Below, in pieces: positions 1,713 to 31,485 of a DNA stretch of 38,722 nucleotides (positions within the stretch are counted from its first letter, which is position 1; each line of letters starts with the position of its first letter). Position numbers and translations under genes: made by a program. The DNA is from Anaerolineales bacterium (GTDB lineage: Bacteria; Chloroflexota; Anaerolineae; Anaerolineales; Villigracilaceae). The notes beneath the pieces are model-generated. The model saw only the letters and a list, made by a program, of their open reading frames with translations. It was not told the DNA's origin and ran no database searches. The DNA lies in contig JAGVAO010000277.1 in assembly GCA_020060235.1 (NCBI GenBank), positions 1-38,722 on the forward strand, read 5' to 3'.

Positions 1713-1729
1713 AAAAGTTTTCTAACAAA

Positions 1730-1758: not shown

Positions 1759-1785
1759 TCCCCCCATCTAGACGGAGGTAGACCC

Positions 1786-3827: not shown

Positions 3828-3840
3828 TCCTTTTGGATGA

Positions 3841-3905: not shown

Positions 3906-3924
3906 TCAAAAATTCAAAAACTAT

Positions 3925-5865: not shown

Positions 5866-5876
5866 AATCAAGTGTG

Positions 5877-8173: not shown

Positions 8174-11100
8174 AACCAATCGAAACCGACACCCTCTCAC
8201 AATTTGACCCGCTTGGCCGTTTCATCCTTTCAAACTTCCAACAGGCGCGCCCATTCTCATCCTTCTTGCCCGGCATCGCTGGCACGCTCGGTATCCCGCT
8301 CTGGGCTTTTTACGTCAATCGTGGGCAAGCCATCGCCGGGTTTGGCGTCGAGAGCAAAGACCATCCCATCCTCGAATTCCAGCCCGCCAGCAAAGCCTAC
8401 CGGCAGACCGCCGCGCTCGGCTTCCGCACCTTTCTGCGCTGGCAGCGCGGCGAGCAAACCGGCTTCTACGAACCCTTTAGCGGGCAAAATGCCCGACGCA
8501 CCATGCTGGTCGGCATGAACGAAGTCGAAATCCGCGAGACAAACCCCGAACTCGGCCTCGAAACCAGCGTTTTATATTTCATCACCCCTGAGCAGCCCTT
8601 CGCTGCCCTGGCCCGGCGCGTCACCTTCCGCAACCTGGGCGAAACCCCGCTCGAACTCGAAGCCCTCGACGGCCTGCCCGCCCTCGTCCCCTACGGCACC
8701 AACAACGGCGCACTCAAAGACATGGCTCGTACCGTCGAAGCCTGGATGGAAGTAAAACACCTCGAATCGGGCATCCCTTTCTACAAATTGCGCGCCAGTT
8801 CGGGGGATAGCGCGGAAGTGTCCGCCATCGAAGCCGGGAACTTCGCCCTGGCTTTTTCTGCGGATGGGGAACGACTCCCGGTTCTCGCCGACCCGGTGGC
8901 TGTCTTCGGTTACGACACGGCTTTTGCCACGCCTGAGCCTTTCGCCGCCCGTGGGCTGGATTCCGTTATCTCGGCTCATCAAATTCTGGAAGGACGCACC
9001 CCCTGCGCCTTCTTTGCTGCCAAACTGACCATTAACCCCGCCCAGGCGCAGACCGTTAATAGCCTGTACGGCATGGTTGCCTCCTTCCCGCTCATCGAAG
9101 CGCGGGCCGCCAACCTGACCAGCACCGCCTTCTTTGAAACATCCCTGGCCGATGCCCGGCAACTGGCTCAAAACCTGACCGAACCGATTGCCACAAAAAC
9201 CGCCTCGCCGCTCTTCGACGCCTACTGCCGCCAGACCTTCCTCGATAACATCATGCGCGGCGGCTGGCCGCTAATTCTGGGCGGAAAACACGTTTATCAC
9301 GTCTACTCGCGCAAGCACGGCGACATGGAACGCGACTATAACTACTTCGTCCTTGCGCCCGAATATTATTCGCAGGGTAACGGCAACTACCGCGATGTCA
9401 ACCAAAACCGCCGCGCCGATGTCTTTTTTGAGCCGCGCGTGGCCGATTTCAACATCCGGGCGTTTGCCAGCCTGATTCAAGCCGATGGCTACAATCCGCT
9501 CGTTGTGCAGGGTGCGGTGTTTAGCCTGCCTGCTGAAAAACGGGATACGATTTTAGGTACAGCCCGCTTTAGCAGTCCTGGGATTGCAGCCCTCGAAAAA
9601 CTCCTCTCCGCCCCCTTCACCCCCGGCAAATTGCTGACCGCCGCGATTGACACAGGACTGCCCAACCCGGTCGAATTCCTCGAAACCGTCCTGGCGCAGT
9701 CTGAACAGCACCTGCGCGCCGTATTCGGCGAGGGCTACTGGGTTGACCACTGGACATATATTCTCGACCTGCTCGACTCGTATTTCGCAGTTTACCCCGA
9801 CAAAAAAGCCGACCTGCTCTTCGACTCGGACCCGCTTCCGTTCTATGATAGTCCTGAAGTTGTCCTGCCGCGCCGTGAGCGTTATGTCCTTTCAGGCGGT
9901 AAGCCGCGCCAACTGAATGCCCTGCGTAAAGACCGCGAAAAAGCGGCCCTGATTGCATCTGGTGGCGAAAACGGCCACTGGGTGCGCGCGCAACATGGCA
10001 AAGGCGAACTTTTCCGCCTGAACCTGTTCGGCAAATTGAATCTGCTCGCCCTGCTGAAATTCGCCACCCGCGACCCGTTCGGGATGGGTGTCGAAATGGA
10101 AGCCGGACGCCCCGGCTGGTACGATGCCCTCAACGGCCTGCCGGGCATGTTTGGCTCGTCCATGCCTGAAACCTACGAACTGCTGCGGCTGGTCGATTTC
10201 CTGCTCAAAAGCCTGGAAGAAACCCCGCGCAAAACCGAACTACCGCGCGAAGCGGGAATTCTCATCGACGCCATCCGCGCCCACTCGGGCAGCAACCCCC
10301 TCACAGCCTGGAACGTGCTCTCAGATGCCCGCGAAGCCTATCGCAGCGCAACCCGCCTCGGCTTCGATGGCGAAACCCTGAGCCTGGATACCGCCGATTT
10401 GATGGAACTCCTGCGCGGGATGAAAGCCAACCTCGAAGACGGCATCCGCCGCGCTGCCGAACTGGGCGCGGATGTCCCGCCGACCTACCTGGCCTGTGAA
10501 CCCGTCGAATTCAACGTTTTGGACGAAATCGACGCCTCCGGGCGGCCTTTGATTGCGGTGAAATCCTTCAAACCTGTGCCCCTGCCCTCCTTCCTCGAAG
10601 GCCCGGTACGCCAGATGAAAGTTCTGACGCGCGGCGAAGCCTGTAAACTCCACGAGGCTGTGCGTGCCAGCGGCCTGTACGACCGCAAACTCGGTATGTA
10701 CCGTGTCAACGCCTCGCTCGACGACCAGCCGCACGATATTGGCCGGGCGCGCGCTTTCTCTCCCGGCTGGCTCGAAAACGGCTCGATTTGGCTGCACATG
10801 TCGTACAAATACCTGCTCGAACTGCTGCGCGCCGGGCTGTATGAGCAGTTTTTCGCCGAACTGCCCGCGAACCTCGTCCCATTCATGAACCCGGAAGTGT
10901 ACGGACGTTCCCCGCTTGAAAACTCGTCCTTTATCGTCTCCAGCGCCCACCCGGACGAAACCCTGCATGGCGGCGGCTTCGTCGCCCGCCTGAGCGGCTC
11001 GACGGCTGAATTCCTGTCCATGTGGCAGGTGATGATGAGCGGCGCTCAGCCGTTTATCGTGGAAAACGGCGAATTGCAACTGGCCCTCAAACCGATTTTG

Positions 11101-11337
11101 CCCGGTGACTGGTTCGATGCGGATGGCAATCTGTCCTTCCGCCTGCTCGGCAAAACGGAGGTCACCTACCACAACCCGTCCCGCCGCGATACGTTCAGCG
11201 GCCTCGAAGCGGAAAAAACCGCCCTGCGCCTCGAGAATGGCAAAACGGTTGAACTCCCTGGCGGAATTATCCCCGCGCCGTATGCCCAGGCGGTGCGTGA
11301 TGGGAAAGTTACATCCATAGAACTATATTTTTTGTAG
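8170..11337 (+). CDS. Large GH94-related phosphorylase, probable beta-1,3-glucan phosphorylase (GH161/GH149 type)
   Basis: Cytoplasmic protein of 1055 residues with no signal peptide. I choose ATG 8170 because it makes an ATGA overlap with the GH26-like gene, the same junction as the one before it. The fold is related to cellobiose phosphorylase (GH94), with an N-terminal beta-sandwich, helical linker and (alpha/alpha)6 barrel, but it is longer than usual GH94 enzymes. In place of the DWND signature it has GRPGWYDALNG (residues 646-656), so Asp652 is the likely general acid. Size, motif and neighbours match the beta-1,3-oligoglucan phosphorylases of families GH161 and GH149, which release glucose 1-phosphate from longer beta-1,3-glucan chains. 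I cannot decide between the two families by eye. A palindromic element straddles its stop codon. Confidence 0.75.
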   Translation: MKPIETDTLSQFDPLGRFILSNFQQARPFSSFLPGIAGTLGIPLWAFYVNRGQAIAGFGVESKDHPILEFQPASKAYRQTAALGFRTFLRWQRGEQTGFYEPFSGQNARRTMLVGMNEVEIRETNPELGLETSVLYFITPEQPFAALARRVTFRNLGETPLELEALDGLPALVPYGTNNGALKDMARTVEAWMEVKHLESGIPFYKLRASSGDSAEVSAIEAGNFALAFSADGERLPVLADPVAVFGYDTAFATPEPFAARGLDSVISAHQILEGRTPCAFFAAKLTINPAQAQTVNSLYGMVASFPLIEARAANLTSTAFFETSLADARQLAQNLTEPIATKTASPLFDAYCRQTFLDNIMRGGWPLILGGKHVYHVYSRKHGDMERDYNYFVLAPEYYSQGNGNYRDVNQNRRADVFFEPRVADFNIRAFASLIQADGYNPLVVQGAVFSLPAEKRDTILGTARFSSPGIAALEKLLSAPFTPGKLLTAAIDTGLPNPVEFLETVLAQSEQHLRAVFGEGYWVDHWTYILDLLDSYFAVYPDKKADLLFDSDPLPFYDSPEVVLPRRERYVLSGGKPRQLNALRKDREKAALIASGGENGHWVRAQHGKGELFRLNLFGKLNLLALLKFATRDPFGMGVEMEAGRPGWYDALNGLPGMFGSSMPETYELLRLVDFLLKSLEETPRKTELPREAGILIDAIRAHSGSNPLTAWNVLSDAREAYRSATRLGFDGETLSLDTADLMELLRGMKANLEDGIRRAAELGADVPPTYLACEPVEFNVLDEIDASGRPLIAVKSFKPVPLPSFLEGPVRQMKVLTRGEACKLHEAVRASGLYDRKLGMYRVNASLDDQPHDIGRARAFSPGWLENGSIWLHMSYKYLLELLRAGLYEQFFAELPANLVPFMNPEVYGRSPLENSSFIVSSAHPDETLHGGGFVARLSGSTAEFLSMWQVMMSGAQPFIVENGELQLALKPILPGDWFDADGNLSFRLLGKTEVTYHNPSRRDTFSGLEAEKTALRLENGKTVELPGGIIPAPYAQAVRDGKVTSIELYFL

Positions 11338-11360
11338 CGCGAGAGATTATCTCGCGCTAC
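11334..11360. repeat. GTAG-bounded palindromic element over the phosphorylase stop codon
   Basis: A perfect 11-bp inverted repeat (11334-11344 with 11350-11360) encloses GATTA. It begins with GTAGCGCGAGA and ends with the complement. The TAG stop of the upstream gene lies inside the left arm. No T run follows. It resembles a REP-type element (those linked to RAYT transposases usually start with GTAG). Confidence 0.6.
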
Positions 11361-11375
11361 CCATAGGAGGAACCC

Positions 11376-12350
11376 ATGACCTTACGCCTTCGCACTCTCG
11401 GCAAGAGCAACCTGAACATCACCGAAATCGGATTTGGCCTGTGGGCTGCTGGCGGCGACCAGTGGGGCACAACCGACGACCAGCAGGTCTTCGATGCGAT
11501 TGATTACGCTCTTGACCGGGGCATGAACTTCTACGACACCGCCGATGTCTACGGCGCAGGCCACAGTGAAGAACTGCTCGGCCATGCCATGCGCGGGCGG
11601 CGAGACAAATTCATCGTCGCCACCAAAATCGGCTGGCGCGACTTCGACGGCGAACGCGGGCAAACCGCCTACACCACGCTCGAAAAATTTATCGCCGGGG
11701 TCGAGAGCAACCTGCAACGCCTGGGTACCGACTACATCGACCTCATCCAGAGTCATATCAACTTCCGTGACCCGACCATGGAAATCTTTGTCGAAGGCTT
11801 CCAGCGCCTGCAAAGGGATGGCAAGGTCAAGGCCTACGGGTTGAGCACCAGCGATTTTGAATACATCAAAGCCTTCAACGCCGATGGCGGCTGCGCCAGC
11901 CTGCAAATCGATTACAGCATCCTCAACCGTACTGCCGAGCAAGAAATCTTCCCGTATTGCCAGGCGCACAACATCGGCGTTATCGTGCGCGGTGGGCTGG
12001 CGATGGGCATCCTGGCGGGTAAATTCACCCCCGAAACCCGATTCAGCGAGGGCGACTTCCGCCGCCGCTGGCACGAAAACCCGGACGAATACGAAATCTT
12101 CCTGAACGACCTGCAAATCGTCGAACAACTGCGTTCACTGGCAACCCCTGAGCGCAGTTTGGCGCACCTGGCATTGCAATTCACGCTCCATCATCCCGCA
12201 GTCACGACGGTCATTCCCGGCATCAAGGATGTGGCCCAGGCGCAGAAGAACATCGCCGCCGGACTGCTGCCGCCCCTGAGCGCCGAAGAATTGACGCTGA
12301 TTGACAACCTGGTTGCGCCCGGCAAGGGGCGCAAGATTTGGCCTGCCTAA
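11376..12350 (+). CDS. Aldo/keto reductase family oxidoreductase
   Basis: NAD(P)H-dependent carbonyl reductase of the aldo/keto reductase superfamily, 324 residues, cytoplasmic, with strong ribosome site AGGAGG at 11365-11370. The catalytic tetrad is complete: Asp54 and Tyr59 in NFYDTADVYG, Lys84 in VATKIGW and His127 in IQSHINF. The C-terminal cofactor loop TTVIPGIKDVAQ is present. It sits between the two phosphorylase genes, so a role on a sugar or sugar-derived aldehyde is plausible, perhaps redox balancing of glucan catabolism; the substrate cannot be read. Palindromic elements flank it on both sides, so it may be expressed less tightly coupled than the upstream enzymes. Confidence 0.92.
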   Translation: MTLRLRTLGKSNLNITEIGFGLWAAGGDQWGTTDDQQVFDAIDYALDRGMNFYDTADVYGAGHSEELLGHAMRGRRDKFIVATKIGWRDFDGERGQTAYTTLEKFIAGVESNLQRLGTDYIDLIQSHINFRDPTMEIFVEGFQRLQRDGKVKAYGLSTSDFEYIKAFNADGGCASLQIDYSILNRTAEQEIFPYCQAHNIGVIVRGGLAMGILAGKFTPETRFSEGDFRRRWHENPDEYEIFLNDLQIVEQLRSLATPERSLAHLALQFTLHHPAVTTVIPGIKDVAQAQKNIAAGLLPPLSAEELTLIDNLVAPGKGRKIWPA

Positions 12351-12353
12351 AAC

Positions 12354-12409
12354 GTACCACCGCCTTCAGGCGGTATCGGCAGGCAATGGCAGGCTGAAGC
12401 CTGCGGTAC
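12354..12409. repeat. GTAC-bounded double-hairpin element
   Basis: Between the reductase and GH94 genes lie two small perfect hairpins: 12359-12365 with 12368-12374, and 12389-12395 with 12398-12404 (7 bp each, 2-base loops). The outer ends GTACCACCGC and GCGGTAC are nearly complementary, so the whole 56 bases can fold as one cruciform. It is likely a repeated palindromic element rather than a terminator, as no T run follows. Confidence 0.55.
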
Positions 12410-12434
12410 ACATCCCATCCAACGAGAATTCACC

Positions 12435-15140
12435 ATGCCCTCACCCAACTGGCAATTCATCGACCCCAACGGCACCTTCCAACTGCCCGACCCCGACCAA
12501 AGCAACTATCTCTACTTCCCGCTGCTCAACGAAGCCGGGATGATGTCTTGCGTCACTCCCACACTGCACGGCGATGCCAAGACCGGACAGAACAGTTACC
12601 TGCTCCAGCCCGTTTCGGTGGATGATTTACACAACACTCGCTTGGCGCGCAATTTTTGGGTGCGGATGGATGGGAAACGGGTTTGGTCGGCGACTGGAAA
12701 CAGCGCGGAACAAACTTCCCGCCGCCTGGCCGCCGATAAAGAGGCTGTGACCCTGACTGCGGGCTTGCTCTGGCAAACCGTCCGGCGGACAGATTCCCAA
12801 AGCGGGTTGCAGGCCGAGGTGACGAGCATTGTCCCGGCCAGTACCACCCATCAGGTCGAGTTGATGCGCGTCCGCCTGGTAAACACAGCCAAAAAGACCC
12901 TGCGCCTGACCCCAACCGCCGCCATCCCGATTTACGGACGCTCGGCGGATAATTTGCGCGACCACCGGCACGTTACGTCGCTCCTGCACAGAATTACCTG
13001 CACGGAACATGGTGTGCTCGTCCGCCCGACCTTGTCGTTCGACGAGCGTGGTCATACCGTCAACACGCTGACCTATGCGGTGCTCGGCACAGATTTGGGC
13101 GGAAAGCCCCCCGTCGGCTTTTTCCCGGTGCTGGAGGATTTCATCGGCGAAGGCGGCGCGCTGGATTGGCCGGGGGCAGTTGTGGCTGATTCAACGGCGA
13201 CCCAGGCGGCGGGGAGCATGGTCGATGGGTACGAGGCGATGGGCGCAATCCGATTCGCAGATGTCGAACTGGCTCCGAGGCAGGAAACGTCCTACATTCT
13301 CCTGATGGGCATTTTACAGGACGGCGAAAGCGCCGAAGCCTGGCTGGATGCCTACGGAACGGACGAGAAATTCGAGCGCGCTCTGGAAGAAACCCGCGCT
13401 TTTTGGGCTTCCAAAGTTGCCGCGCTGACGTTTGAAACAGGCGACCCGCGGCTGGATGGCTGGCTGAAGTGGGTGGCCTTGCAGCCGACCCTGCGGCGCA
13501 TGATGGGCAACTCGTTCCTGCCCTATCACGATTACGGGCGCGGCGGGCGCGGTTGGCGCGATTTGTGGCAGGATGTGCTGGCGCTGTTGATGATGGAGCG
13601 CGGCGATGTGGGCGAGATGCTGCTCGGTTATTTTGGCGGCGTGCGCGCCGACGGCTCGAACGCGACGATTATCGGTTCGCAGCCGGGCGAGTTCCGCGCC
13701 GACCGCAACAACATCCCGCGCGTGTGGATGGACCACGGCGCCTGGCCGCTGCTGACGACGCGCCTGTACATCGACCAGAGCGGCGACCTGGAATTTTTAC
13801 TGCGCGAGCAGGGTTATTTCAAAGACCACCTGAGTCATCGCTGTAAACAGACTGACCCCGAATGGTCGCCCGAACTGGGGACGGTGGTGCGCGCAGCGGA
13901 TGGGTTGCCGTATTGTGGGTCGGTGCTGGAGCATTTGCTCATCCAGCACCTGACGGCGTTTTATCATGTCGGCGAGCACAATACAATTTTGCTCGAAGAC
14001 GCCGACTGGAACGACGGGATGGATATGGCCCACCGGCGCGGCGAGAGCGTGGCATTCAGCGCGCTCTACGCGGGCAACCTGCGCGGGTTGGCAGACCTGT
14101 GCCTGGCGCTGGCAGACCGCGGCGTGGAGCGGATTGAACTGGTCTCTGAACTAACGACTTTGCTGGACGGCGCGGATTTTGAATCGGTTTCGTCCAAACG
14201 GGAACTTTTGCAATCGTATTTCAACCAGGTACGGCGCGGATTTTCCGGCGCAAAAACCCAAATTCCGCTGGCAGACCTGGCGGCCAACTTGCGCCAGAAA
14301 GCCGACTGGCTGGCAGGGCACTTGCGCAAGCAGGAATGGCTCGAAGCGGGAGATAGTTTGGGCTGGTTCAACGGCTATTACGACGATGACGGTCAGCCGG
14401 TGGAAAATACCGGGGGGCGCATGACCCTGACCGGGCAGGTTTTTACGCTGATGTGCGGAATCGCCAGCGAGGCGCAGTCCCGCCAGATTGCGGCGGCGGC
14501 AGACAAGTACCTGTACGACCCGTCCCTGCGCGGCTACCGGCTGAACACCGACTTTGGCGAAGTGCGCCTGAATTTGGGACGCGCCTTCGGTTTTGCCTAC
14601 GGACACAAGGAAAACGGCGCGATGTTCAGCCACATGGCGGTCATGTACGCCAATGCGCTCTACCAGCGTGGACTGGTCGCCGAGGGCTGGCGCGTTTTGC
14701 AAGGAATTTACGAACAAAGCCAGGATTTCGCTGTCAGCCGCATGTATCCCGGCATCCCGGAGTATTTCAGCCAGCGCGGGCGCGGCATGTATCCGTACCT
14801 GACTGGCTCGGCCAGTTGGTACCTGCTGACGATGCTGACCGAAGTCTACGGCGTGCGCGGCGCGCTGGGCGATTTGGTGCTTGCGCCCAAGTTGCTGGCA
14901 AGCCAGTTTGGCGCGGATGGCAATGCCAGCGTGCATACCCTGTTTGCGGGTAAGAAAGCGCATATCACCTACCAGAACGCGCTGGGCCTGGAGTACGGGC
15001 AATACAAAATCGGCGCGGTGCGAGTCAATGGACAGGAAATAGCAGCGGAAACCCTGCCGGTCGGTGTCAAAATCAAACGCGCGGCGCTGGAAGCGTTGCC
15101 GGAGCAGGTTGAGATTTTGGCGGCGTTGGTTGCAGGCTAA
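12435..15140 (+). CDS. GH94 beta-glucoside phosphorylase (laminaribiose/cellobiose phosphorylase type)
   Basis: Cytoplasmic GH94 enzyme of 901 residues that would split a short beta-glucoside with phosphate into glucose 1-phosphate and a shorter sugar. The family signature DADWNDGMD lies at residues 522-530; Asp527 corresponds to the general acid of cellobiose phosphorylase. The N-terminal beta-sandwich (to about residue 290), barrel (about 330-800) and C-terminal cap are all present, including NTGGRMTLTGQVF and the SHMAVMYANALY helix. Its length is nearer the laminaribiose and oligoglucan phosphorylases than the shorter cellobiose phosphorylases. With the GH16 enzyme and the larger phosphorylase, beta-1,3-linked disaccharide is the likely substrate. 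The ribosome site is weak, so the start is supported mainly by the protein N-terminus. Confidence 0.88.
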   Translation: MPSPNWQFIDPNGTFQLPDPDQSNYLYFPLLNEAGMMSCVTPTLHGDAKTGQNSYLLQPVSVDDLHNTRLARNFWVRMDGKRVWSATGNSAEQTSRRLAADKEAVTLTAGLLWQTVRRTDSQSGLQAEVTSIVPASTTHQVELMRVRLVNTAKKTLRLTPTAAIPIYGRSADNLRDHRHVTSLLHRITCTEHGVLVRPTLSFDERGHTVNTLTYAVLGTDLGGKPPVGFFPVLEDFIGEGGALDWPGAVVADSTATQAAGSMVDGYEAMGAIRFADVELAPRQETSYILLMGILQDGESAEAWLDAYGTDEKFERALEETRAFWASKVAALTFETGDPRLDGWLKWVALQPTLRRMMGNSFLPYHDYGRGGRGWRDLWQDVLALLMMERGDVGEMLLGYFGGVRADGSNATIIGSQPGEFRADRNNIPRVWMDHGAWPLLTTRLYIDQSGDLEFLLREQGYFKDHLSHRCKQTDPEWSPELGTVVRAADGLPYCGSVLEHLLIQHLTAFYHVGEHNTILLEDADWNDGMDMAHRRGESVAFSALYAGNLRGLADLCLALADRGVERIELVSELTTLLDGADFESVSSKRELLQSYFNQVRRGFSGAKTQIPLADLAANLRQKADWLAGHLRKQEWLEAGDSLGWFNGYYDDDGQPVENTGGRMTLTGQVFTLMCGIASEAQSRQIAAAADKYLYDPSLRGYRLNTDFGEVRLNLGRAFGFAYGHKENGAMFSHMAVMYANALYQRGLVAEGWRVLQGIYEQSQDFAVSRMYPGIPEYFSQRGRGMYPYLTGSASWYLLTMLTEVYGVRGALGDLVLAPKLLASQFGADGNASVHTLFAGKKAHITYQNALGLEYGQYKIGAVRVNGQEIAAETLPVGVKIKRAALEALPEQVEILAALVAG

Positions 15141-18612: not shown

Positions 18613-19590
18613 ATGAACGCAAAGCCATATACAATTGGCGTCTTGACCTCCGGCGGTGACGCGCCGGGCATGAATCCCTGCATCCGCGCCATTGTGCGCG
18701 CCGGGCTGGCGCGCGGGGCGCGGGTGGTTGGCATCGGTAACGGCTATGAAGGACTGATTAACGGTGAGTTTCGTCCCCTCGGCGCGCGTGACGTGGGCGG
18801 TATCCTGCTACGCGGCGGAACCATCCTGCAAACCCGCCGTTCGCAGGCTTTTCGCGAACCGCGCGGGCAGCGCGAAGCCATTCGGCGCATGAACGAATAT
18901 GGCATGGACGGCCTGATTGTCATCGGTGGCGACGGCTCGCTGGCGGGCGCGCTGGCCCTGCACAAACAGGGGGTCAATGTGGTCGGAATCCCCGGCAGTA
19001 TTGACAACGACATCTGGGGTACGAACATTTCGATTGGCGTCGATACGGCCATGAATACCATCATGGACGCGGTCGACAAACTGCGCGATACAGCTTCTTC
19101 GCACGGGCGCGCCTTCCTGGTTGAGACGATGGGGCGCGGCTCCGGCTACCTGGCCGTCATGGCGGGCATTGTCAGCGGCGCAGAAATCGTGCTTATCCCT
19201 GAGACCGACGTCACCATCCAGGACGTTGCCAATGCGGTCGAAAGTGCCTACAAGCGCGGCAAAACCCACGCCTTCATCATCAATGCCGAGGGGTCGAACA
19301 TCAAAACCACCGAACTGGCCGGTGCGCTCGAAGACCTGGATGTCGGTTTTCGGACTCGCGTCACCATTCTTGGCCACATCCAGCGCGGGGGTTCGCCGAC
19401 CGCCTACGACCGGCTGCTGGCCTCGCGCATGGGCATCAAAGCCGTTGATGCGCTGCTGAACGGCACGACTGGCGTGATGACCGGCCTGAAAGGGCGCGGC
19501 ATCGAATTCGTGCCGCTTGAAGAAGTGGTCGATACCAAGCGCGAAATCAACATGGAATATTTTGAGATGGTTAGCCTGTTGGCGCGTTAG
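18613..19590 (+). CDS. pfkA: 6-phosphofructokinase, ATP-dependent type
   Basis: Glycolytic kinase forming fructose 1,6-bisphosphate, 325 residues, cytoplasmic. TSGGDAPGMN at the N-terminus and IPGSIDND near residue 130 are family signatures; Asp131 is the catalytic base. The phosphoryl-donor markers are Gly108 (GGDGS) and Gly128 (PGSIDND); pyrophosphate-dependent enzymes have Asp and Lys there, so ATP is the predicted donor. The C-terminal substrate motif GHIQRGGSPTAYDR is intact. It lies 9 bases after rnz and ends 24 bases before a strong terminator. Sugar phosphates from the upstream glucan locus would feed this step. Confidence 0.95.
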   Translation: MNAKPYTIGVLTSGGDAPGMNPCIRAIVRAGLARGARVVGIGNGYEGLINGEFRPLGARDVGGILLRGGTILQTRRSQAFREPRGQREAIRRMNEYGMDGLIVIGGDGSLAGALALHKQGVNVVGIPGSIDNDIWGTNISIGVDTAMNTIMDAVDKLRDTASSHGRAFLVETMGRGSGYLAVMAGIVSGAEIVLIPETDVTIQDVANAVESAYKRGKTHAFIINAEGSNIKTTELAGALEDLDVGFRTRVTILGHIQRGGSPTAYDRLLASRMGIKAVDALLNGTTGVMTGLKGRGIEFVPLEEVVDTKREINMEYFEMVSLLAR

Positions 19591-19614
19591 TCGCTAAAAA
19601 GGCAACTCGAGATT

Positions 19615-19657
19615 AAACGGAAACGCTTCCCAGTTTTGGGAAGTGTTTCCGTTTTTT
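19615..19657. terminator. Strong, partly bidirectional terminator between pfkA and the dioxygenase fusion
   Basis: A 17-bp stem (19615-19631 with 19638-19654, one G-U pair in the + transcript) and a 6-base loop are followed by six T at 19652-19657. On the minus strand the stem is bordered by TTTAATC, so it may also end the convergent dioxygenase operon whose stop is at 19665. Confidence 0.85.
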
Positions 19658-19664
19658 GCGCCGG

Positions 19665-22600
19665 TTATGCCCCCAGACGTTGGTAGTAGGCGTCCAGAAC
19701 GCCAGGCAGGGCCTGCGCGGCTTCCAGAAGGGCTGTGCGCCCCTGGCTGACGGTCTGGCGCTCATAAGCCTCGAAAACCTGCAATCCGCGCCGCAGGCCC
19801 AGTTTGAACTGGTTCAGGAATTCCTGGTCGGCGTTGCGCAGGTCTTCGGTCAGGTGTTCAAGCGCGGGCAGGCTGCTGTCTGGCGTGGAACTAATCCGCG
19901 CCAGGGCTTGCGAACCGAGCGAACGCGTCGCCTGGGCTGCCGGGCCGGATTCGATTTCGCCAATCCGTTCGCGCATCCAGCGGTAGTCCTGCTGGTTTGA
20001 GCACAGGCCGCTGGTCAGCGCCCAGAGTTCGTCGAGCGGTGTCCCGCAGATTTTGGCGAGGTAATCGCGCAGGAATCTTTCGTGGGTTTGCAGGAGCAAC
20101 TGGGCGCGGTAATGCGATGGGCGCGGCTGTCCGCGTGTTTCATCGTGCGTGACCTGCTCGCCGCAGATGCTGTAATCGTTGAGCAGGGCGTTTTCCATCT
20201 CGACCACTGCGTAAAGGAAGCGCACCCAGGTTTCGTACAGGCGTGTCAGCGAGACGAACTGCAATCCCTGTGGCGTGATGGCCACCCCGCCGCCCGTGCC
20301 AAAATCGAGACGCCGCACCGCGCCCAACTGGTACATGCCGAGCAGGGAATCGACTTCGGGGTTGACATCATGCTGGACTTTTTTGTAGGCAATCGTCGCG
20401 TCCATGCCCGCGTAGGACTGGATGATTTTCAGCCCACCAGGGTGCAGGTGGGCGAAGTCGCTGGCGTCGTACACGCGCCCGTTGATGATGAGCCAGTAGC
20501 CGTCCTGCGGGTTATTGTGCAGCACCACTTCCGAGGCGGGGTAATGTTGGGTTTGCTCGAACTGCGCCCCGGCGTAGGTGGTGAAAACTTCCTGCAAATA
20601 GCGGTCTTCGCCCACCAGCCGGAAGAACAACTCGCGGCCCTCGTCCGGCCCGGCGTGGCTGGCGATGATTTCGCGCAGGGTATCCATGACAGTTTTGGCG
20701 AATCCTGTCCGCCCGCAGACGTAGAAATACGCGCCGCGCTGGACAAGTTCCCACAATGCGGCCTGGTTGGCAGGCGTTTGCATGACCTGGTCGATGTAGC
20801 CGCGCGGGTCGGGGCTGAAGACCAGTTTCCCGGCCTCGGTTGCCAGGCTGGCATCTTCTTGTGAAAAAGCGGCTTGCAAGTTCAGGCGGCCTGTCGCGGC
20901 CAGCGCCTGCCACTCGTCCTGGTAATACAGTTCGGAGCGGGTGCGCGCGCCAAAAAAAAGCCAGCTTTCGCTGTCTGCTGGGCGGGCCTGCAACATGCTG
21001 CGGAAGGGGGCAATCCCTGTGCCGCCAGCGAACATGACCACCGGGCAAGCCGAGTCGGCGGGCAGACTGAAACGCGGCGGGTGGATGATTTTGACGGAGA
21101 TGCGGCGCGTTTCGGGGCTGCCCTCGGCGGCGATGCGGCTGAGGAAGCCGGAGCCGGTTCCGGTGCGCAGCGCGGCGCGCGAGACGGGCGTTTCCTGCGT
21201 CTGGTAGCGCAATCCGCCGATGGTCAGTTGCATCTCATCCGCCGCGTCATCCGCCATGACCGAGGAAATTGAATAAGTGCGGAAGGTCTCCGGTGGGACG
21301 AGGCGGGTGATGTGCTCGCGCTCACCGGGCTGGGCCTTCCACAACCGCTTGGGGTTGAATCCGGCTTCGGCCAGCAGATGCAGCAAATCCCACAGTTCCC
21401 ACTGGTCTTCGGCGCGGGCCTCGATGATTTTGTGCAGGCGCTCATTGTGGCTCAGCGACAGCAGGGTTTTGGCGACGCTGCGCGCCACCGGGCGGATGCG
21501 ACCGAACGTGAGCAGGCTGCGCAGCGAAAGCACGACCGCCCCCTGGTAGCCGTCGCGCAATTGTACGGCGGTGCGCCAGACTGCGTTGAGCGGAATTGGC
21601 TTGTCGCCGGTGGCGCGCAGGGCGGCCAGGGTCTGGCGGACAAGTTCGGGGTCGTTTTCGGGCAGGATGGCGCAGCGGTCGCCGGGCTGGTAGCGGATTC
21701 CGCTGCCGGAAATATCCAGCGCCACGCGGCTGACCGGCGCAGCCTCCGACCCTGCCAGCGGCTCGACGCGCTTGACGCGCACGAAGTGGCAGGCCGCCGG
21801 GGCTCGGACGTAGCGCTCCTGGCGGGCGCGCTCCAGTTCATCGTCCATGCGGTCCCACAGGCGGTCTTCAAACCCGCCGTCGAACCCGCCCAGGGTGCGG
21901 CTGCGCCCGGCCTTGAAAGACAAATCCAAAAATCCGTAGGCTTTCAGGCGGTGCCTGCCTATCAAGCCGGTTTCGCCGGAGTAGGCCTCGAGGGCCTGCT
22001 GGAACAGGCCGCTCAATTCGCTGTCGTTGGCTTTTTTGACGAAGGCGGGCACGGAAATTTCTTCGGCGGCTTTGAGCAGTTCCTGCCAGTGGGGCGGGAA
22101 CCAGGCGCGGGTGCGGTCGGTTTCATGCCCGACGGTGGTCGCGTAACTGCCGCGCCCGAAGAAAATATCCATCAGCGTAAAGGTCGGGATGGCCGTGCCG
22201 CTCGGCCCCGGAATGGCGTTGCCTTCCTGGAAAGGCGTCGCCAGCGGCGCAACCGTTTTGCCCCACACCACAGGGTCGACGTACAGCGGGTGGTAGGCGT
22301 TGGGGTTGACCTTCATAAAGGAGGTGTGGGTCAGGTTGTTGAAGGTGTCGGCCAGCAAGGTCAGTTCGCGCTTGAGCGCGGCGCAGTCTTCGGCGTGGGC
22401 GGCCTCCTGCGCGCGGATGACGGAAGCCAGCACCGGCGTAAAGCGGGCCACAATCTCAATCGGGGTGCACTGGAAGCGGCGCTCGTCCTCGTTGCCGACG
22501 ATGGGGATGAGCAGGCGCAGGTTTTCCATGCGCATCGGGTCGGGCAGGGCGGGGTCGATAAGCCGCCAGTTGTAGATGTTCAAGTCGATGAAGGAAAGGT

Positions 22601-23009
22601 GTGGGGCCGGTCGGTGCAGGCGGCGGCTGACCTCGTCCCAGGGGCGAAGGACGCTTTCAGGGATGCGCTCGTACGCCGCGCCTTCGACGTAGTGATAGGC
22701 GTGGGCGAAAATGCCCAGGATGGCGGCGGCCCGGTACAGGTCGCCGTCCGACAGGGCGGATTCTTCCCCGCTCAGGATGGGCATCTGTTCCAGCTGGCGG
22801 CGCAGGCCGACCGTGCGGAAGAGTTCCGGCAAGTTGGCGGCGGTCTCGTCCCAGGCCTGGTGCGAGGCGGGCAGCGACAGGCGCGGCAGTTCGACGGGCA
22901 TAAATCCGTGCGAGGCCGAAAGGAAGCCCAGGTTTTCATGTCCCAGGCGGCGGTTTTCGGCCTCGGCTTCCAGCAGCGCGCGCCGGATGGGAATCTGGCT
23001 CTCCGGCAT
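19665..23009 (-). CDS. Fusion: IDO-like heme dioxygenase + CPR-type FAD/NADPH reductase + cytochrome b5 + helical tail
   Basis: An 1114-residue multidomain oxidoreductase. Residues about 1-320 resemble indoleamine 2,3-dioxygenase: AHAYHY and LSFIDLNIYNW, then PGPSGTAIPTFTLMDIFFG and TRAWFPPHWQELL, where His307 aligns with the proximal heme His of human IDO1 (in PPAHRNFL). Residues about 400-790 match the FAD-binding and NADPH-binding halves of cytochrome P450 reductase (PGDRCAILPEND; FRTYSISS at 576-583; FAGGTGIAPFR at 660-670; FYVCGRTGFAKTV at 762-774) but lack the FMN flavodoxin. Residues about 820-903 are cytochrome b5, with axial His856 in HPGG and His880 exactly 24 residues later. Residues about 915-1114 are helical and unrecognised. 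The start at ATG 23009 lies one base after the upstream stop. Substrate is unknown; tryptophan or another indole is only an inference. Confidence 0.75.
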   Translation of the reverse strand: MPESQIPIRRALLEAEAENRRLGHENLGFLSASHGFMPVELPRLSLPASHQAWDETAANLPELFRTVGLRRQLEQMPILSGEESALSDGDLYRAAAILGIFAHAYHYVEGAAYERIPESVLRPWDEVSRRLHRPAPHLSFIDLNIYNWRLIDPALPDPMRMENLRLLIPIVGNEDERRFQCTPIEIVARFTPVLASVIRAQEAAHAEDCAALKRELTLLADTFNNLTHTSFMKVNPNAYHPLYVDPVVWGKTVAPLATPFQEGNAIPGPSGTAIPTFTLMDIFFGRGSYATTVGHETDRTRAWFPPHWQELLKAAEEISVPAFVKKANDSELSGLFQQALEAYSGETGLIGRHRLKAYGFLDLSFKAGRSRTLGGFDGGFEDRLWDRMDDELERARQERYVRAPAACHFVRVKRVEPLAGSEAAPVSRVALDISGSGIRYQPGDRCAILPENDPELVRQTLAALRATGDKPIPLNAVWRTAVQLRDGYQGAVVLSLRSLLTFGRIRPVARSVAKTLLSLSHNERLHKIIEARAEDQWELWDLLHLLAEAGFNPKRLWKAQPGEREHITRLVPPETFRTYSISSVMADDAADEMQLTIGGLRYQTQETPVSRAALRTGTGSGFLSRIAAEGSPETRRISVKIIHPPRFSLPADSACPVVMFAGGTGIAPFRSMLQARPADSESWLFFGARTRSELYYQDEWQALAATGRLNLQAAFSQEDASLATEAGKLVFSPDPRGYIDQVMQTPANQAALWELVQRGAYFYVCGRTGFAKTVMDTLREIIASHAGPDEGRELFFRLVGEDRYLQEVFTTYAGAQFEQTQHYPASEVVLHNNPQDGYWLIINGRVYDASDFAHLHPGGLKIIQSYAGMDATIAYKKVQHDVNPEVDSLLGMYQLGAVRRLDFGTGGGVAITPQGLQFVSLTRLYETWVRFLYAVVEMENALLNDYSICGEQVTHDETRGQPRPSHYRAQLLLQTHERFLRDYLAKICGTPLDELWALTSGLCSNQQDYRWMRERIGEIESGPAAQATRSLGSQALARISSTPDSSLPALEHLTEDLRNADQEFLNQFKLGLRRGLQVFEAYERQTVSQGRTALLEAAQALPGVLDAYYQRLGA

Positions 23010-23010
23010 C

Positions 23011-23868
23011 TTAAAGCGTCCCCACGACAGCCTGGCAGATGTTGGCGCGCGAGACCGTTCCCAGCAGGCGTCCATCCTTGACCACCGGCAGCAAGCGGAT
23101 TTGCCTGCTGACCAGAATGGCCGATGCCTTGGCGACATGGTCTTCGGGCAGCAGCGTAATTGGCTCGCGAATAATCAGCGGCGCAATCGGGCGGTGCGAC
23201 AGTTCGGCCCCGCGCCGCAGGAAGACCTGGTAGGCGTCGTCGAGCGTGCCGCCTTCTTCCAGAATCTCGTCGATGTCGGGCAGGGCCGCGCGCAGGATGT
23301 CACCTTCGGAGAGAACGCCGACAAATCCGCCGGATGAATCCACCACCATCAGGTCGCTGACTCCCGAAAGGGCCACAATCTCTGCCGCCACATGCAGGTT
23401 CGAATCGGCGCGAATGCGGGCAACATGGGTGTTCATCACGCCCTTGACGTACATATAAGCAGGCTGGCCGACCGCCTGCCAGTCTTCGAGAAGTTCGTCT
23501 AGATGTTCCAGGTTTTTGGCATGCCACGGCCTGACCAGGAAATAGTGAATCCCCAACTGGTTGATGGCGGTGATGGCGGTTTCACTGTCCCTGGTTTCGG
23601 CCAGCAGCACCCGGCGGGCGTCCGGGTACAGGCTGCCTGCCTTGCTGAAAAATTCCACGCCGGGCATATCTGGAAGGGATTGACCGACCAGCAGGAGCGC
23701 AACGCTGTCGTTTTCGGCGCGGTGCTGTTCGAGGGCGCTCAAAACCTGTCCGCCGGTATCGGCGCGCAGGACGCGATACTTGTCGGCGTAGCGGCTGCGC
23801 AGGTCGCTTTCGATGCGTTCGCTTTCATCCGCATCGGGTTGCAGGATATAAATAAATGGAGAATTCAT
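23011..23868 (-). CDS. Degenerate receiver domain fused to two CBS domains
   Basis: Regulatory protein of 285 residues. Residues 1-130 resemble the receiver domain found at the N-terminus of fused response-regulator/thioredoxin-reductase proteins (YRVLRADTGG, SLPDMPGVEFF, PDARRVLLAE, LDELLEDW). The phosphoacceptor Asp is replaced by Gly62 and the conserved Lys by Arg113, so it should not be phosphorylated normally. Residues about 142-197 and 228-283 are two CBS motifs (DLMVVDSSGGFVGVLSEGD; LLPVVKDGRLLGTVSRA), which usually bind adenine nucleotides or NAD-type ligands. Its stop is one base before the dioxygenase fusion start, so it is probably a regulatory partner sensing energy or redox state (inference). 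There is no DNA-binding domain. Confidence 0.85.
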   Translation of the reverse strand: MNSPFIYILQPDADESERIESDLRSRYADKYRVLRADTGGQVLSALEQHRAENDSVALLLVGQSLPDMPGVEFFSKAGSLYPDARRVLLAETRDSETAITAINQLGIHYFLVRPWHAKNLEHLDELLEDWQAVGQPAYMYVKGVMNTHVARIRADSNLHVAAEIVALSGVSDLMVVDSSGGFVGVLSEGDILRAALPDIDEILEEGGTLDDAYQVFLRRGAELSHRPIAPLIIREPITLLPEDHVAKASAILVSRQIRLLPVVKDGRLLGTVSRANICQAVVGTL

Positions 23869-23894
23869 GACAGCACCGCCCCTTTGCTGCCGGT

Positions 23895-24281
23895 CTATTC
23901 CGGCAGTTTGGCAATTGCTTCAATTTCAATCAAAAGGGCCGGGTCTACCAGGGCAGAAAGTACAGTGGCGCGGGCTGGCAGCGGCTCGGAGAAGTATTCC
24001 ATGTAAATCTGATTGAAGGGCTGGAAAAATTCCGATTTGGTAATAAAGACGGTGGCTTTCACCAGGTCGCTATAATCGCAGCCCGCGGCCCGCAAAATCA
24101 TGCCGATGTTTTCGATGGTCTGGCGAGCCTGCTCCTCGATGGTGCTGCCCAGGTAGCCATCCGGCCCGCGGCCCACCTGGCCGGAGATAAACAAAAATCC
24201 CCCGCTGATGAGTCCCGGCGAGTAAGCGCCCAGGGGTTTGGGAGCGCCTTCAGGGAATACTGCGCGTTTGTCTTTTGCCAT
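23895..24281 (-). CDS. Rid-family (YjgF/YER057c/UK114) protein
   Basis: Small cytoplasmic protein of 128 residues. The family fold is clear: PLGAYSPGLISGGFLFISGQVG near the N-terminus, DLVKATVFIT in the middle, and PARATVLSALVDPALLIEIEAIA at the end, where the Arg of PARATV is the residue that contacts the substrate carboxylate in RidA. Rid proteins hydrolyse reactive enamine/imine intermediates from amino acid metabolism, and some relatives deaminate 2-aminomuconate in tryptophan breakdown. AAGGAGA (24289-24295) is a good ribosome site. It is the first gene of the operon with the receiver-CBS protein (26 bases away) and the dioxygenase fusion, which suggests amine or indole chemistry for the operon. 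Confidence 0.92.
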   Translation of the reverse strand: MAKDKRAVFPEGAPKPLGAYSPGLISGGFLFISGQVGRGPDGYLGSTIEEQARQTIENIGMILRAAGCDYSDLVKATVFITKSEFFQPFNQIYMEYFSEPLPARATVLSALVDPALLIEIEAIAKLPE

Positions 24282-24313
24282 GTTTCACTCTCCTTGTGTG
24301 GTTGGTTGCTTCG

Positions 24314-24343
24314 AGTATACCTGATAAAGACTGTCCAATTCAA
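24314..24343 (-). promoter_or_regulatory. Candidate promoter of the Rid-dioxygenase operon
   Basis: On the minus strand TTGAAT (24343-24338) and TATACT (24319-24314) are spaced by 18 bases, placing transcription start roughly 20-25 bases before the Rid start codon. It is the best sigma-70-like pair in the gap between the divergent Rid and helicase genes. Confidence 0.5.
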
Positions 24344-24425
24344 AAAATTGCGCCACCTATCGCATCCGGCTTTCATCGGGTATGATGAGACCGCAAAGAA
24401 AAACCACCCATTTGAAGGAAAGACT

Positions 24426-25652
24426 GTGAATTTCAATCAATTTAAATTAGATTCCCGCCTGGCGGCAGGCATTGCCCGCGCCGGTTATGAGACCCCGACC
24501 CCCGTGCAGGAACAGGCCATCCCGGCGGCCCTCGAAGGCCACGACCTGATTGCCACCGCCCAGACCGGAACCGGAAAAACGGCAACCTTTGTTTTGCCAA
24601 TTTTGCACAAATTGCTACAGGGACCGCGCCACAAAGCCCGCGCCCTGATTGTGACCCCCACCCGCGAACTGGCCGAGCAAATCAACGACAACATCCGCAC
24701 CTTGAGCGCCGGCACCAACCTGCGCTCTGCAACCGTTTACGGCGGGGTGGGGACTGCGCCGCAGGTCAGGGCGCTGAAAACCGGCGTCGAAATCCTGGTG
24801 GCCTGCCCTGGCCGTTTGCTCGACCTGGCCGCGCAGGGTATTGCCCGGCTCGATAACATCGAAATCCTGGTGCTGGATGAAGCCGACCGCATGTTCGACA
24901 TGGGCTTCCTGCCCGATGTGCGCCGGATTATCAAACTCGTCCCGCCCAAACGCCAGACGATGCTTTTTTCGGCCACTTTCCCGCCCGAAGTGGAGAAACT
25001 GACCGCCGAGGCGCTTTCCGCGCCGATGCGAATCGCGGTCGGGTTGACCCGCCCGGCGCATACTGTCAGCCATGCCTTGTATCCCGTCCCCAAGCACCTC
25101 AAAACCGCGCTGACCTTTGAAATCCTGAAACGCACCGACACCAATTCCGTGCTGATTTTTGCGCGTACCCGCCACCGTGCCCAGAGTCTGTCCATCAAAC
25201 TCTCGCGTCAGGGATATCGCGTCACCAGCCTGCACTCTGACCGCACGCAAGGACAGCGCCAGTCCGCGCTGAACGGCTTCAAGGACGGCCGCTACCAGAT
25301 TATGGTCGCCACCGACATTGCCGCCCGTGGCCTTGACGTGGACAGCATCTCGCACGTCATCAACTTCGACATGCCTGACACCGCCGACGCCTACATCCAC
25401 CGCATCGGGCGCACGGGCCGCGCTGAACGAACCGGCGACGCCTTCACCCTCATTACACCCGAAGACGATGACATGGTGCGCGAACTTGAAAAAATCATGA
25501 AGCAGACCCTGCCGCGTGAAACCATCGAGGGGTTCGATTACAATGTCCCGGCTCCTGTCCAGTCCAACCAGCCCGCGCCGCGCGGCCCGAAACCCGTCCC
25601 GCACCGTCCGCCCAGCCACAAGAGTCACAAACCCCATCCGCCGCGCCGGTAG
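24426..25652 (+). CDS. DEAD-box ATP-dependent RNA helicase
   Basis: RNA helicase of 408 residues from GTG 24426, which has AAGGAA just upstream and begins exactly before the conserved aromatic of the Q motif (MNFNQF); longer in-frame starts lack family similarity. All core motifs are visible: Q motif, AQTGTGKT (45-52), PTRELAEQ, DEAD (151-154), SAT (182-184) and HRIGRTGRAERTG. The C-terminal tail of about 40 residues is Pro/Lys/His-rich and probably binds RNA loosely, as in RhlE-type helicases. RNA unwinding in ribosome assembly or mRNA decay is the usual role. It is divergent from the Rid operon and convergent with the tRNA-Lys gene. Confidence 0.93.
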   Translation: MNFNQFKLDSRLAAGIARAGYETPTPVQEQAIPAALEGHDLIATAQTGTGKTATFVLPILHKLLQGPRHKARALIVTPTRELAEQINDNIRTLSAGTNLRSATVYGGVGTAPQVRALKTGVEILVACPGRLLDLAAQGIARLDNIEILVLDEADRMFDMGFLPDVRRIIKLVPPKRQTMLFSATFPPEVEKLTAEALSAPMRIAVGLTRPAHTVSHALYPVPKHLKTALTFEILKRTDTNSVLIFARTRHRAQSLSIKLSRQGYRVTSLHSDRTQGQRQSALNGFKDGRYQIMVATDIAARGLDVDSISHVINFDMPDTADAYIHRIGRTGRAERTGDAFTLITPEDDDMVRELEKIMKQTLPRETIEGFDYNVPAPVQSNQPAPRGPKPVPHRPPSHKSHKPHPPRR

Positions 25653-29874: not shown

Positions 29875-31452
29875 CTAAAACATTTTTTGCCACTTGCTCA
29901 AGGCCCAGCGTCCCGTTTCGGGGTGGGCGCGGCCCTCGAGGTCGAGAAACTCGTCTGATTCCAGGGAGGTATGGATGAGTTTGCGAATCGTCCCCACGCA
30001 GTCTTCATCGAAAACCAGCCTGCTTTTTGCGGCCAGCGTCAGCACCACACCGGCATACAGGGCGGGATATTCTGCCGGTTCGGCGCGGCTTTCGAGCGTC
30101 TGGCGCAGGATTTTTCGGACAAGGGCAACATCGGGACTGAGCGGCCTGGCGCGGCGCGGCTTGGCCGGTTGCAGCACCAGGCTTGCCAGCCCGCTGTTTT
30201 TCTCGCTCTCGAAGGTTTCGACCCGCCAGCCGCTGGCCGAGGCCGCCAGGATGACCGCGCCGAGAAAATCCGGCTCCAGTTCTGGCACCAGGGCGTGAAA
30301 GGGGATTTGCCCGCCCGCGACCTGGCGCAGGTTGCCGAACAGGGCGCGCAGGGCTTCGGCGTGCCACTGCCAGTCGTAGCGGCGGCGGCGCAGGACGGCC
30401 TTGAAGGGCGCGACGGCTTCGCGCCCCCACAACCAGCCAGCCCAGAGCGCGGAAAGCGTCCAGAAGGCCTGGTTGGGGCGCGGGATGATGGCCGCCAGCG
30501 CCGCAAAGGGGATTTCGTCCAGTTGCCCGGCGGCTTCGCGCAGCGGCCCCTCGTAAATGGACAGGCCGCCGTTTTCGGGCGGTTCGTCGGGCCAGAGGGC
30601 GTGGGCCACCTCGGCATCCTGTGAAGGCGCAAAATTTGTCCAGAAGTCGATGCCTTTTTCGAGCGCGAGCCAGGCGTTGTGTTCACGAAATGTGGCTGGC
30701 AGGCTGAGTTGGCGCGGACGCGGGCGTTCTGTGGCGTGCGGCCACAGGCTGTTGCACAGGTCGAGGGCATACAGGATGAGCGCCAGCAGGCAGCGGCGGC
30801 GCTCGTCGCTGGTGGAAATGCCGTCGAGGCGGTTAATCACCGTCCCCAGGGCGTACACGGCGCGGGGCAGGTACAGGCGCAGGGCTTCCTCGGCGTGAAC
30901 CCGGTCGGGGTCGTCGCGGGCGGCGATACGCTCCAGGGCGCGGGCGCGGTGCAGGCCTTCGGTGTTGGCCCATTGGGTGGCGTTCTGGATGTCAGATTCG
31001 GACGCGGGCCGCTCACCCATATCGCCGCAGGAGGCGCAGGTATAAGTCTTGGACAGCAGGTGGCCGCTTTTAGAATCCCAGGTGAAAAACTCGGCGGGCA
31101 GCCGGTGGTTGCAGGCCGCGCAATGGGTTTCGTACAGGCTTTGCAGGTGGATTTCGAGCCGCTCGTCGTCTTTGCGGGCAATTGCCAGGTCTGAGAGCGC
31201 GGCGCGCAGGTCGGCTTCGGCGGGCGGATGGGCGGCCAGGTCGAGCAGGAAGCGGATGATGGGGTTGCCGGCAGTGACCAGTACGCGCATTCCGCCTGCC
31301 GCCAGTTGGACAGGTAATCGCGGCGAGGCGGCTGCGGGGTCCAGCACCCAGGCTGCGGGTGGCGCGATGCCGCTGGCCCAGGCCAGGGTGGCCTCACCCG
31401 GCAGGGGCGGCAGGTAACGGCTAAGGGGGGCAGAAAAATCCAGCGTATTCAC
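29875..31452 (-). CDS. Zinc-ribbon protein resembling a degenerate DNA methylase
   Basis: Protein of 525 residues from GTG 31452; this start is 6 bases after a TATCCT box, while an upstream in-frame TTG lies before it. Residues about 35-70 (VLDPAAASPRLPVQLAAGGMRV, here shown as VLDPAAASPR then GGMRVLVTAGNPIIRFLL) resemble the SAM-binding start of DNA adenine methylases (DPFxGSG). A zinc ribbon follows with Cys111, Cys114, Cys139 and Cys142. Near residues 315-340, RPNQAFWTLSALWAGWLWG occupies the place where DUF1156-type methylases carry the catalytic DPPY, which is absent. I infer an inactive or altered methylase-like protein; the similarity is by eye and the true role is unknown. It lies 33 bases downstream of the GH13 gene on the same strand. 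Confidence 0.55.
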   Translation of the reverse strand: MNTLDFSAPLSRYLPPLPGEATLAWASGIAPPAAWVLDPAAASPRLPVQLAAGGMRVLVTAGNPIIRFLLDLAAHPPAEADLRAALSDLAIARKDDERLEIHLQSLYETHCAACNHRLPAEFFTWDSKSGHLLSKTYTCASCGDMGERPASESDIQNATQWANTEGLHRARALERIAARDDPDRVHAEEALRLYLPRAVYALGTVINRLDGISTSDERRRCLLALILYALDLCNSLWPHATERPRPRQLSLPATFREHNAWLALEKGIDFWTNFAPSQDAEVAHALWPDEPPENGGLSIYEGPLREAAGQLDEIPFAALAAIIPRPNQAFWTLSALWAGWLWGREAVAPFKAVLRRRRYDWQWHAEALRALFGNLRQVAGGQIPFHALVPELEPDFLGAVILAASASGWRVETFESEKNSGLASLVLQPAKPRRARPLSPDVALVRKILRQTLESRAEPAEYPALYAGVVLTLAAKSRLVFDEDCVGTIRKLIHTSLESDEFLDLEGRAHPETGRWALSKWQKMF

Positions 31453-31458
31453 AAAAAT

Positions 31459-31464
31459 AGGATA
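31459..31464 (-). promoter_or_regulatory. -10 box for a leaderless zinc-ribbon gene
   Basis: On the minus strand TATCCT ends six bases before GTG 31452. A weak -35-like TGAACA lies 18 bases further upstream. The spacing equals that of the leaderless + strand genes in this window. Confidence 0.45.
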
Positions 31465-31485
31465 GCACAATTGGGGCTGGCGTGT

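Follow-up and report, generated by a model that had tools for sequence, protein, structure and literature searches.

The 38,722-nucleotide contig JAGVAO010000277.1 of an Anaerolineales bacterium (assembly GCA_020060235.1), hereafter the window, encodes a 1114-amino-acid fusion protein that joins an IDO-fold heme domain, a CysJ-like flavin reductase, a cytochrome b5 and a helical C-terminal domain in a single chain. We interpret it, with a probability of roughly 0.6, as a self-sufficient IDO-fold heme oxygenase in which electrons would pass from NADPH through FAD and b5 to the IDO heme, and which probably acts on a substrate other than tryptophan under regulatory control. The four domains, the ligand and flavin motifs with their conservation, the operon partner and the loss of the residue equivalent to IDO1 Arg231 are read directly from sequence and models; from these we infer cofactor content, electron path, chemistry, substrate and gating. 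The fusion is an IDO-fold enzyme whose electron supply is apparently built in, and any member could serve as a fixed model of cytochrome b5 meeting an IDO heme. One purified protein could show how far the reductant sets IDO/HDAO chemistry, that is, whether two oxygens or one are transferred, a question raised for IDO (PMC12921851) and for MarE (PMC11904535; here and below, cited papers stand for those parts of them that were available).

The gene is one intact frame without internal stops, as an earlier note on this DNA had described it, and is present in single copy among the contigs of its genome. An alternative reading of 1157 amino acids begins within the upstream gene for a CBS-domain protein. 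The gene and its parts lie as follows, where CPR denotes NADPH-cytochrome P450 reductase:

19665..23009, minus strand: fusion gene of 1114 amino acids, with IDO fold, FAD/NADPH reductase, cytochrome b5 and C-terminal helical domain (open reading frame, Pfam and model)
21792..22997, minus strand: IDO-fold heme domain, residues 5-406 (Pfam IDO 108.4 bits; VIA Z 38.5-40.5)
21951..21953, minus strand: codon of His353, predicted proximal heme ligand (alignment, 53 of 53 fusions and 4 of 4 stand-alone bacterial IDOs)
20574..21788, minus strand: CysJ/CPR-type FAD and NADPH module without flavodoxin, residues about 408-812 (Pfam, NCBIfam, PDB and Foldseek; R577xYS and Gly/Cys-Gly motifs)
20310..20552, minus strand: cytochrome b5 domain, residues about 820-900, with the codons of His856 at 20442-20444 and His880 at 20370-20372 (Pfam and alignment)
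19668..20297, minus strand: C-terminal helical domain, residues 905-1114 (model)

Four Pfam families match this protein, all above their cut-offs: IDO at residues 31-324 (cut-off 26), FAD_binding_1 at 410-597 (36 bits, cut-off 32.3), NAD_binding_1 at 659-774 (53.3 bits, cut-off 22) and Cyt-b5 at 826-896 (56.7 bits, cut-off 23.7). Over all 1114 residues Pfam matches no flavodoxin (FMN-binding) domain, and it leaves the last 215 residues without a match. The AlphaFold model, built from an alignment with 34 homologues, reaches a mean pLDDT of 89.1 and a pTM of 0.88; the only stretches of at least three residues with pLDDT below 50 are residues 1-3 and the linker 811-818. Domain, fold and conservation evidence together give good support, in anatomical terms, to a single polypeptide that has sites for two hemes and one flavin in a layout that would permit self-reduction of the IDO-type heme. 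The earlier note had recognised three of these domains, including the flavodoxin-free reductase and the b5 with both its heme ligands, and had missed the fourth. Its self-reducing heme dioxygenase with two hemes and one flavin is well supported in its anatomy and putative in its function; the word dioxygenase is not established, given the Arg231 loss and the lack of an above-cut-off kynureninase.

Structural comparison places the first domain firmly in the IDO fold, a match that the earlier note had proposed looking for. In VIA, residues 5-406 superpose on IDO2 and IDO1 over 347-363 residues at root-mean-square deviations of 2.0-2.5 (50 matches shown), at 19-22% identity in the structural alignments, and a profile comparison with IDO1 gives E of about 1e-31. 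The domain extends to about residue 406, not to 320 as first thought. By fold, the fusion belongs to the IDO/HDAO superfamily; the strict IDO-enzyme label is not applied to it.

Residue conservation was counted over 53 aligned fusions, comprising the window protein and all 52 homologous loci with an intact frame; an earlier alignment of 35 rows held the window and 34 loci, with L047 and L067 absent from it. His353 is histidine in every fusion, and its column is the sole histidine common to 13 fusions and four stand-alone bacterial IDOs. The phmmer alignment places the histidine of the stand-alone IDOs on IDO1 His346, which we take to be the proximal heme ligand (its number being the count minus a three-residue tag). 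From this alignment, His353 is likely the proximal heme histidine of the fusion. His307, put forward earlier for that role, is ruled out: 49 of 53 fusions have His there (the others Ala in two, Asn in one, Tyr in one) against 53 of 53 for His353, and IDO1 His303 aligns at fusion position 308, one column away.

The substrate pocket departs from that of tryptophan-specific IDO. In IDO1, Arg231 contacts the carboxylate of the substrate tryptophan (PMC12921851). The equivalent position is Gly in 32 and Ala in 21 of the 53 fusions and Arg in all four stand-alone bacterial IDOs, a comparison drawn from a MAFFT alignment with gaps close by and thus strong, not final. Beside this position, Trp249 and Lys251 are invariant in all 53 fusions, while Arg369 is kept in 52; the position of IDO1 Phe226, which is Phe or Tyr in all four stand-alone IDOs, is an invariant Trp in the fusions. 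The fusion thus shares with IDO1 and IDO2 the complete fold, the proximal histidine and an above-cut-off match to Pfam PF01231, but differs from them at the Arg231 and Phe226 positions and in its added reductase, b5 and C-terminal domains.

These pocket differences bear on the possibility that the protein is a true tryptophan or indole 2,3-dioxygenase, with the tethered reductase and b5 serving only to restore autoxidised heme to the reduced state. The IDO fold and the proximal histidine agree with such a role, as does the proposal of cytochrome b5 as a cellular reductant of IDO (PMC4191572), but the loss of the Arg231 equivalent throughout the family makes it unlikely. Genomic context was assessed with the kynureninase model TIGR01814 (cut-off 246.4) in 22 fusion-bearing genomes, a set outside which the host of locus L031 falls. 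Only above-cut-off scores were used; matches at E<=0.001 are common, in 19 of the 22 fusion genomes and 10 of 14 controls, of which two exceed the cut-off. Kynureninase above the cut-off is absent from the window's draft genome (96.9% complete; best score 34.1 bits) and from that of its congener, G002. The Pfam-scanned neighbours of the fusions likewise include no kynureninase-type match, a stand-alone IDO being their only kynurenine-type match. Ordinary tryptophan dioxygenation by the fusion is disfavoured because the Arg231 equivalent is lost in all 53 and the draft genome has no above-cut-off kynureninase. A kynurenine role is disfavoured for the window's genome and may apply in other hosts.

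Stand-alone IDOs, found in four of the 22 fusion-bearing genomes, add a further argument against that dioxygenase role. A canonical one lies near the fusion in three genomes, at L026, L047 and L067, and directly adjoins it in the latter two; in the L058 genome it sits on another contig than the fusion. That such clusters contain a second IDO-fold enzyme suggests a reaction for the fusion different from that of IDO. All three settings contain Amidohydro_3 proteins and a protein of 369-400 amino acids of no known family, with GT90 in L026 and L047 and a sulfotransferase in L067.

The cluster at L026 (4-19 kb), L047, L067, L069 and L071 is common to two cyanobacteria and a Kitasatospora and looks like a specialised-metabolite locus. 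Separately, in the taxonomic order of the window's host, L009 carries at 77-2589 a canonical kynurenine pair, in which a stand-alone IDO homologue comes directly after an above-cut-off kynureninase.

The reductase module resembles CysJ and CPR. Among NCBIfam models it lies nearest CysJ (TIGR01931, 143.7 bits), far under the equivalog cut-off of 668.15. PDB comparison finds SiR-FP60 at E 3.4e-32, together with the reductase parts of BM3 and nitric-oxide synthase. Foldseek on the model also finds SiR-FP60 (E 5.5e-19), and the matches shown are CysJ, CPR, P450 BM3 and heme-oxygenase-CPR fusions. Arg577 is present in all 53 fusions, and Tyr579 and Ser580 in 52 each, residues that we take to form the FAD motif RxYS. 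Cys765 and Gly766 are invariant in the same 53 proteins, while Gly663, Gly665 and Pro668 are invariant in the 35 aligned rows; in those rows position 809, near the end of CysJ and CPR chains, is aromatic (Phe in 32, Tyr in two). Positions 716-717 are mostly Ser-Arg (Ser in 52 and Arg in 45 of 53; Ser-Gln in the window protein), which may be read as the 2'-phosphate motif of an NADPH site. NADPH is likely the cofactor of the fusion family, and less surely that of the window member. The axial ligands of the b5 heme, His856 and His880, are histidine in all 53 fusions.

An NO- or peroxide-detoxifying enzyme would follow the logic of flavohemoglobin, with the IDO-fold heme acting like the globin and being fed by the FAD/NADPH module and b5. 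Coupling to CBS, FHA or cyclic-nucleotide-binding (cNMP) domains resembles stress control, and few metabolic neighbours are held in common, as such a function might predict. This function is nonetheless distinctly unlikely: invariant Trp249 and Lys251 are what a specific organic substrate would lead one to expect, the reductase is nearest CysJ and CPR, with flavohemoglobin a far weaker match (25.9 bits), and the occurrence of RidA at eight of 57 loci suggests that the product is an amine or an imine.

In the self-sufficient oxygenase that we favour, NADPH would reduce FAD in the CysJ/CPR-like module, and FAD would then hand single electrons to the b5 heme held by His856 and His880, which would take the place of the FMN domain of diflavin reductases. 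The b5 would in turn reduce the His353-ligated IDO heme, and this path from NADPH through FAD and b5 to the IDO heme is the simplest reading of the domain order. Once reduced, the IDO heme would bind O2 and oxygenate a substrate that is not free L-tryptophan but another aromatic compound, probably one with an amino group. Through the tether the heme would stay ferrous, and a further reduction of the iron once a single oxygen atom has been transferred may tip the reaction toward monooxygenation. Activity is probably gated by the CBS protein, or elsewhere in the family by FHA or cyclic-nucleotide domains.

Published work on IDO gives this scheme a precedent in trans. Cytochrome b5 is a proposed physiological reductant of IDO (PMC4191572); its supply of electrons to IDO as a separate protein, as stated in the earlier note, is in print. 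Formation of N-formylkynurenine by IDO needs no electrons beyond the first reduction, while monooxygenation by IDO requires re-reduction at every turnover, which ascorbate or NADH supports (PMC12921851). In MarE, monooxygenation has been suggested to arise when ascorbate reduces Compound II (PMC11904535). Because only monooxygenation needs re-reduction each turnover, a tethered reductase fits it at least as well as dioxygenation; by analogy, tethering would either guard against autoxidation or support monooxygenation. A more specific version, put forward tentatively, is a new class of His-ligated, self-sufficient heme monooxygenase, whose chain would feed each turnover and re-reduce ferryl iron in a BM3-like manner on a non-tryptophan amine, gated by CBS, FHA or cyclic-nucleotide domains. 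Overall, we lean toward an oxygenase with a new substrate.

Several observations weigh against this interpretation, beginning with the gaps near the Arg231 column mentioned above. Kynureninase exceeds the cut-off in 10 of the 22 fusion-bearing genomes, which speaks for tryptophan dioxygenation, and two more genomes fall just below it, at 242.1 and 234.9. With cytochrome b5, human IDO1 fell short of its activity in the methylene-blue assay (PMC4191572), and PrnB, another HDAO member, yielded no product when supplied with cytochrome b5 or with P450 reductase (PMC11791213). The window protein has Gln at the usual 2'-phosphate Arg, making use of NADH possible. CBS aside, no neighbour cluster is common to more than 11 of 57 loci, and the surroundings offer little hint of a pathway.

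Comparison with known enzymes brings out what is unusual in this arrangement. The reductase shares FAD_binding_1, NAD_binding_1 and the RxYS motif with CysJ and CPR but lacks their FMN/flavodoxin domain, and a cytochrome b5 follows instead. Ncb5or and other fusions of cytochrome b5 reductase with b5 also combine an FAD-NAD(P)H module and a b5 in one chain. Unlike that type, the fusion has a CysJ/CPR-like reductase, carries its b5 after the reductase rather than before it, and adds an oxygenase domain. P450 BM3, nitric-oxide synthase and flavohemoglobin likewise unite a heme oxygenase and an NADPH-flavin reductase in one polypeptide, yet the fusion differs from them in its IDO fold, its His-ligated heme, the lack of an FMN domain and its b5 carrier. 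The earlier note knew of no described enzyme with this domain order; a limited literature search, with most subscription papers outside its reach, also found no description, and the architecture is new as far as the searches reach.

Genome mining shows the protein to be one member of a dispersed family. A scan of the genome_contigs collection with two peptide patterns, covering one genome per species (84,980 species), yielded 91 stretches, 58 relatives and 57 distinct loci, a lower bound because two patterns overlook relatives. Host labels fall in six phyla: Chloroflexota, Actinomycetota, Cyanobacteriota, Armatimonadota, Pseudomonadota and Myxococcota. Several hosts are metagenome-assembled genomes and possibly mis-binned, and isolate records exist in Actinomycetota and Cyanobacteriota. 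In the order of the window's host, 10 of 400 genomes match the protein, five with fusion-type matches (two in contig-edge pieces) and five with the IDO part alone. The viral_contigs search found no relative, and plasmid records hold no place covering 80% of the query; 95 of them match, and the 20 listed do so in the reductase part only. This six-phylum spread of host labels and the CBS partner together point to a regulated step that has gone unnoticed. Two divergent fusion copies, L025 and L029, share a single Chloroflexi genome (G408).

Integrity of the frame across this family also settles its authenticity. The window's genome is a 279-contig draft, so that joining of adjacent genes by assembly or annotation error might be suspected; such an artefact is vanishingly improbable and is ruled out by intact fused homologues. 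One intact fused frame spans the query length in 52 of 57 loci, one of them (L050) on a finished chromosome, and the congener's fusion is 79% identical over its full length; the assembly fusion that the earlier note named as a possible refutation is not borne out. Of the five other loci, three (L017, L018 and L051) are cut off by contig ends, L048 is broken into two frames in a metagenome-assembled genome with the record title cov_1.06, and L068 is a fragment only (query 383-665). Quick trees of the IDO, reductase and b5 plus C-terminal parts have 16-18 of 32 splits in common. Because these module trees show no conflict among branches with support of at least 95, they are consistent with one old fusion passed on as a unit.

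The C-terminal domain is conserved together with the enzyme. Its 210 residues (905-1114), folded alone, reach a pLDDT of 95.3. Foldseek finds no match for it at E<=0.001, the best VIA Z of 8.0 is within the chance level for helical bundles, and a PDB profile search gives three matches at E 0.5-0.9, none convincing. Pfam assigns no family to the C-terminal domains of 24 members, with only scattered single-member matches. The domain is not put forward as a new fold. It occurs in four of 400 genomes of the window's phylum, in three of them within a frame of more than 1100 amino acids; the fourth (G497) has a 338-amino-acid frame near a contig end, where fusion is putative. It is also present in the families of the Herbidospora and Catellatospora genomes, in 15 of 150 and 11 of 150 genomes respectively. 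One genome, G912, contains two matches to it.

Upstream of the fusion lies a short probable operon, whose elements and those flanking it are:

23011..23868, minus strand: CBS-domain protein of 285 amino acids whose N-terminus resembles a degenerate receiver; its stop codon and the fusion start codon are separated by one base
23895..24281, minus strand: RidA/YjgF-family protein, first gene of the probable operon (PF01042 102.9 bits, cut-off 27.3)
24314..24343, minus strand: sigma-70-like promoter match upstream of RidA, weak (sole match in 19300-24700, against 0.9 expected by chance)
19626..19643, minus strand: terminator-like hairpin 3' of the fusion stop codon, weak (8 in the region against 6.6 expected by chance)

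In 50 of 57 loci the fusion is preceded by a CBS homologue in the same orientation. Among the other seven, L018, L051 and L067 start at a contig edge, L068 is the fragment noted above, and L026, L031 and L047 lack CBS. At its N-terminus, the window's CBS protein scores 27.8 bits for Response_reg, under the cut-off of 30.2. In an alignment read by eye, the position of the phospho-acceptor Asp is Gly in the window, Ser in L012, Asp in L013 and His in L014; the window's clade thus pairs the fusion with a CBS protein that has a receiver-like domain and an unconserved phospho-Asp. Outside this clade the partner is a bare double-CBS protein, and the fusion often carries FHA. Among the 57 loci, FHA occurs in 33 of 34 long N-terminal extensions, the 34th being a GGACT domain (L031); L030 adds a C-terminal saccharopine dehydrogenase and L043 a C-terminal tandem of cNMP-binding domains.

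Such regulatory domains, in cis or in trans at most loci, invite the idea of a redox or oxygen sensor whose heme and flavin chain signals to FHA, CBS or cNMP partners without bulk oxidation of a substrate, and the helical C-terminal domain, conserved along with the enzyme, agrees with it. A sensor is quite improbable, however: a complete reductase and oxygenase fold is costly for sensing, and eight Pfam-scanned fusions contain no DNA-binding, kinase or cyclase output domain.

RidA accompanies the fusion in eight of 57 loci, in the window in the order RidA, CBS, fusion, hinting at an imine or enamine product of the favoured oxygenase. The window's RidA protein scores 104.2 bits against TIGR00004, slightly under the cut-off of 106.25.

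Other neighbours vary among loci. Three Chloroflexota loci (L019, L020 and L025) have downstream clusters in common; downstream of L019 lie a PIG-L deacetylase, a 1015-amino-acid PIG-L frame with a cNMP domain and a glycosyltransferase. Elsewhere in the window, at 8152-11337 and 29875-31470, two frames of 1061 and 531 amino acids have no Pfam match at E 0.001. Positions 237-15140 of the window hold a sugar-utilisation cluster with a solute-binding protein, two permeases, GH3, GH16, GH26, an aldo/keto reductase and GH94.

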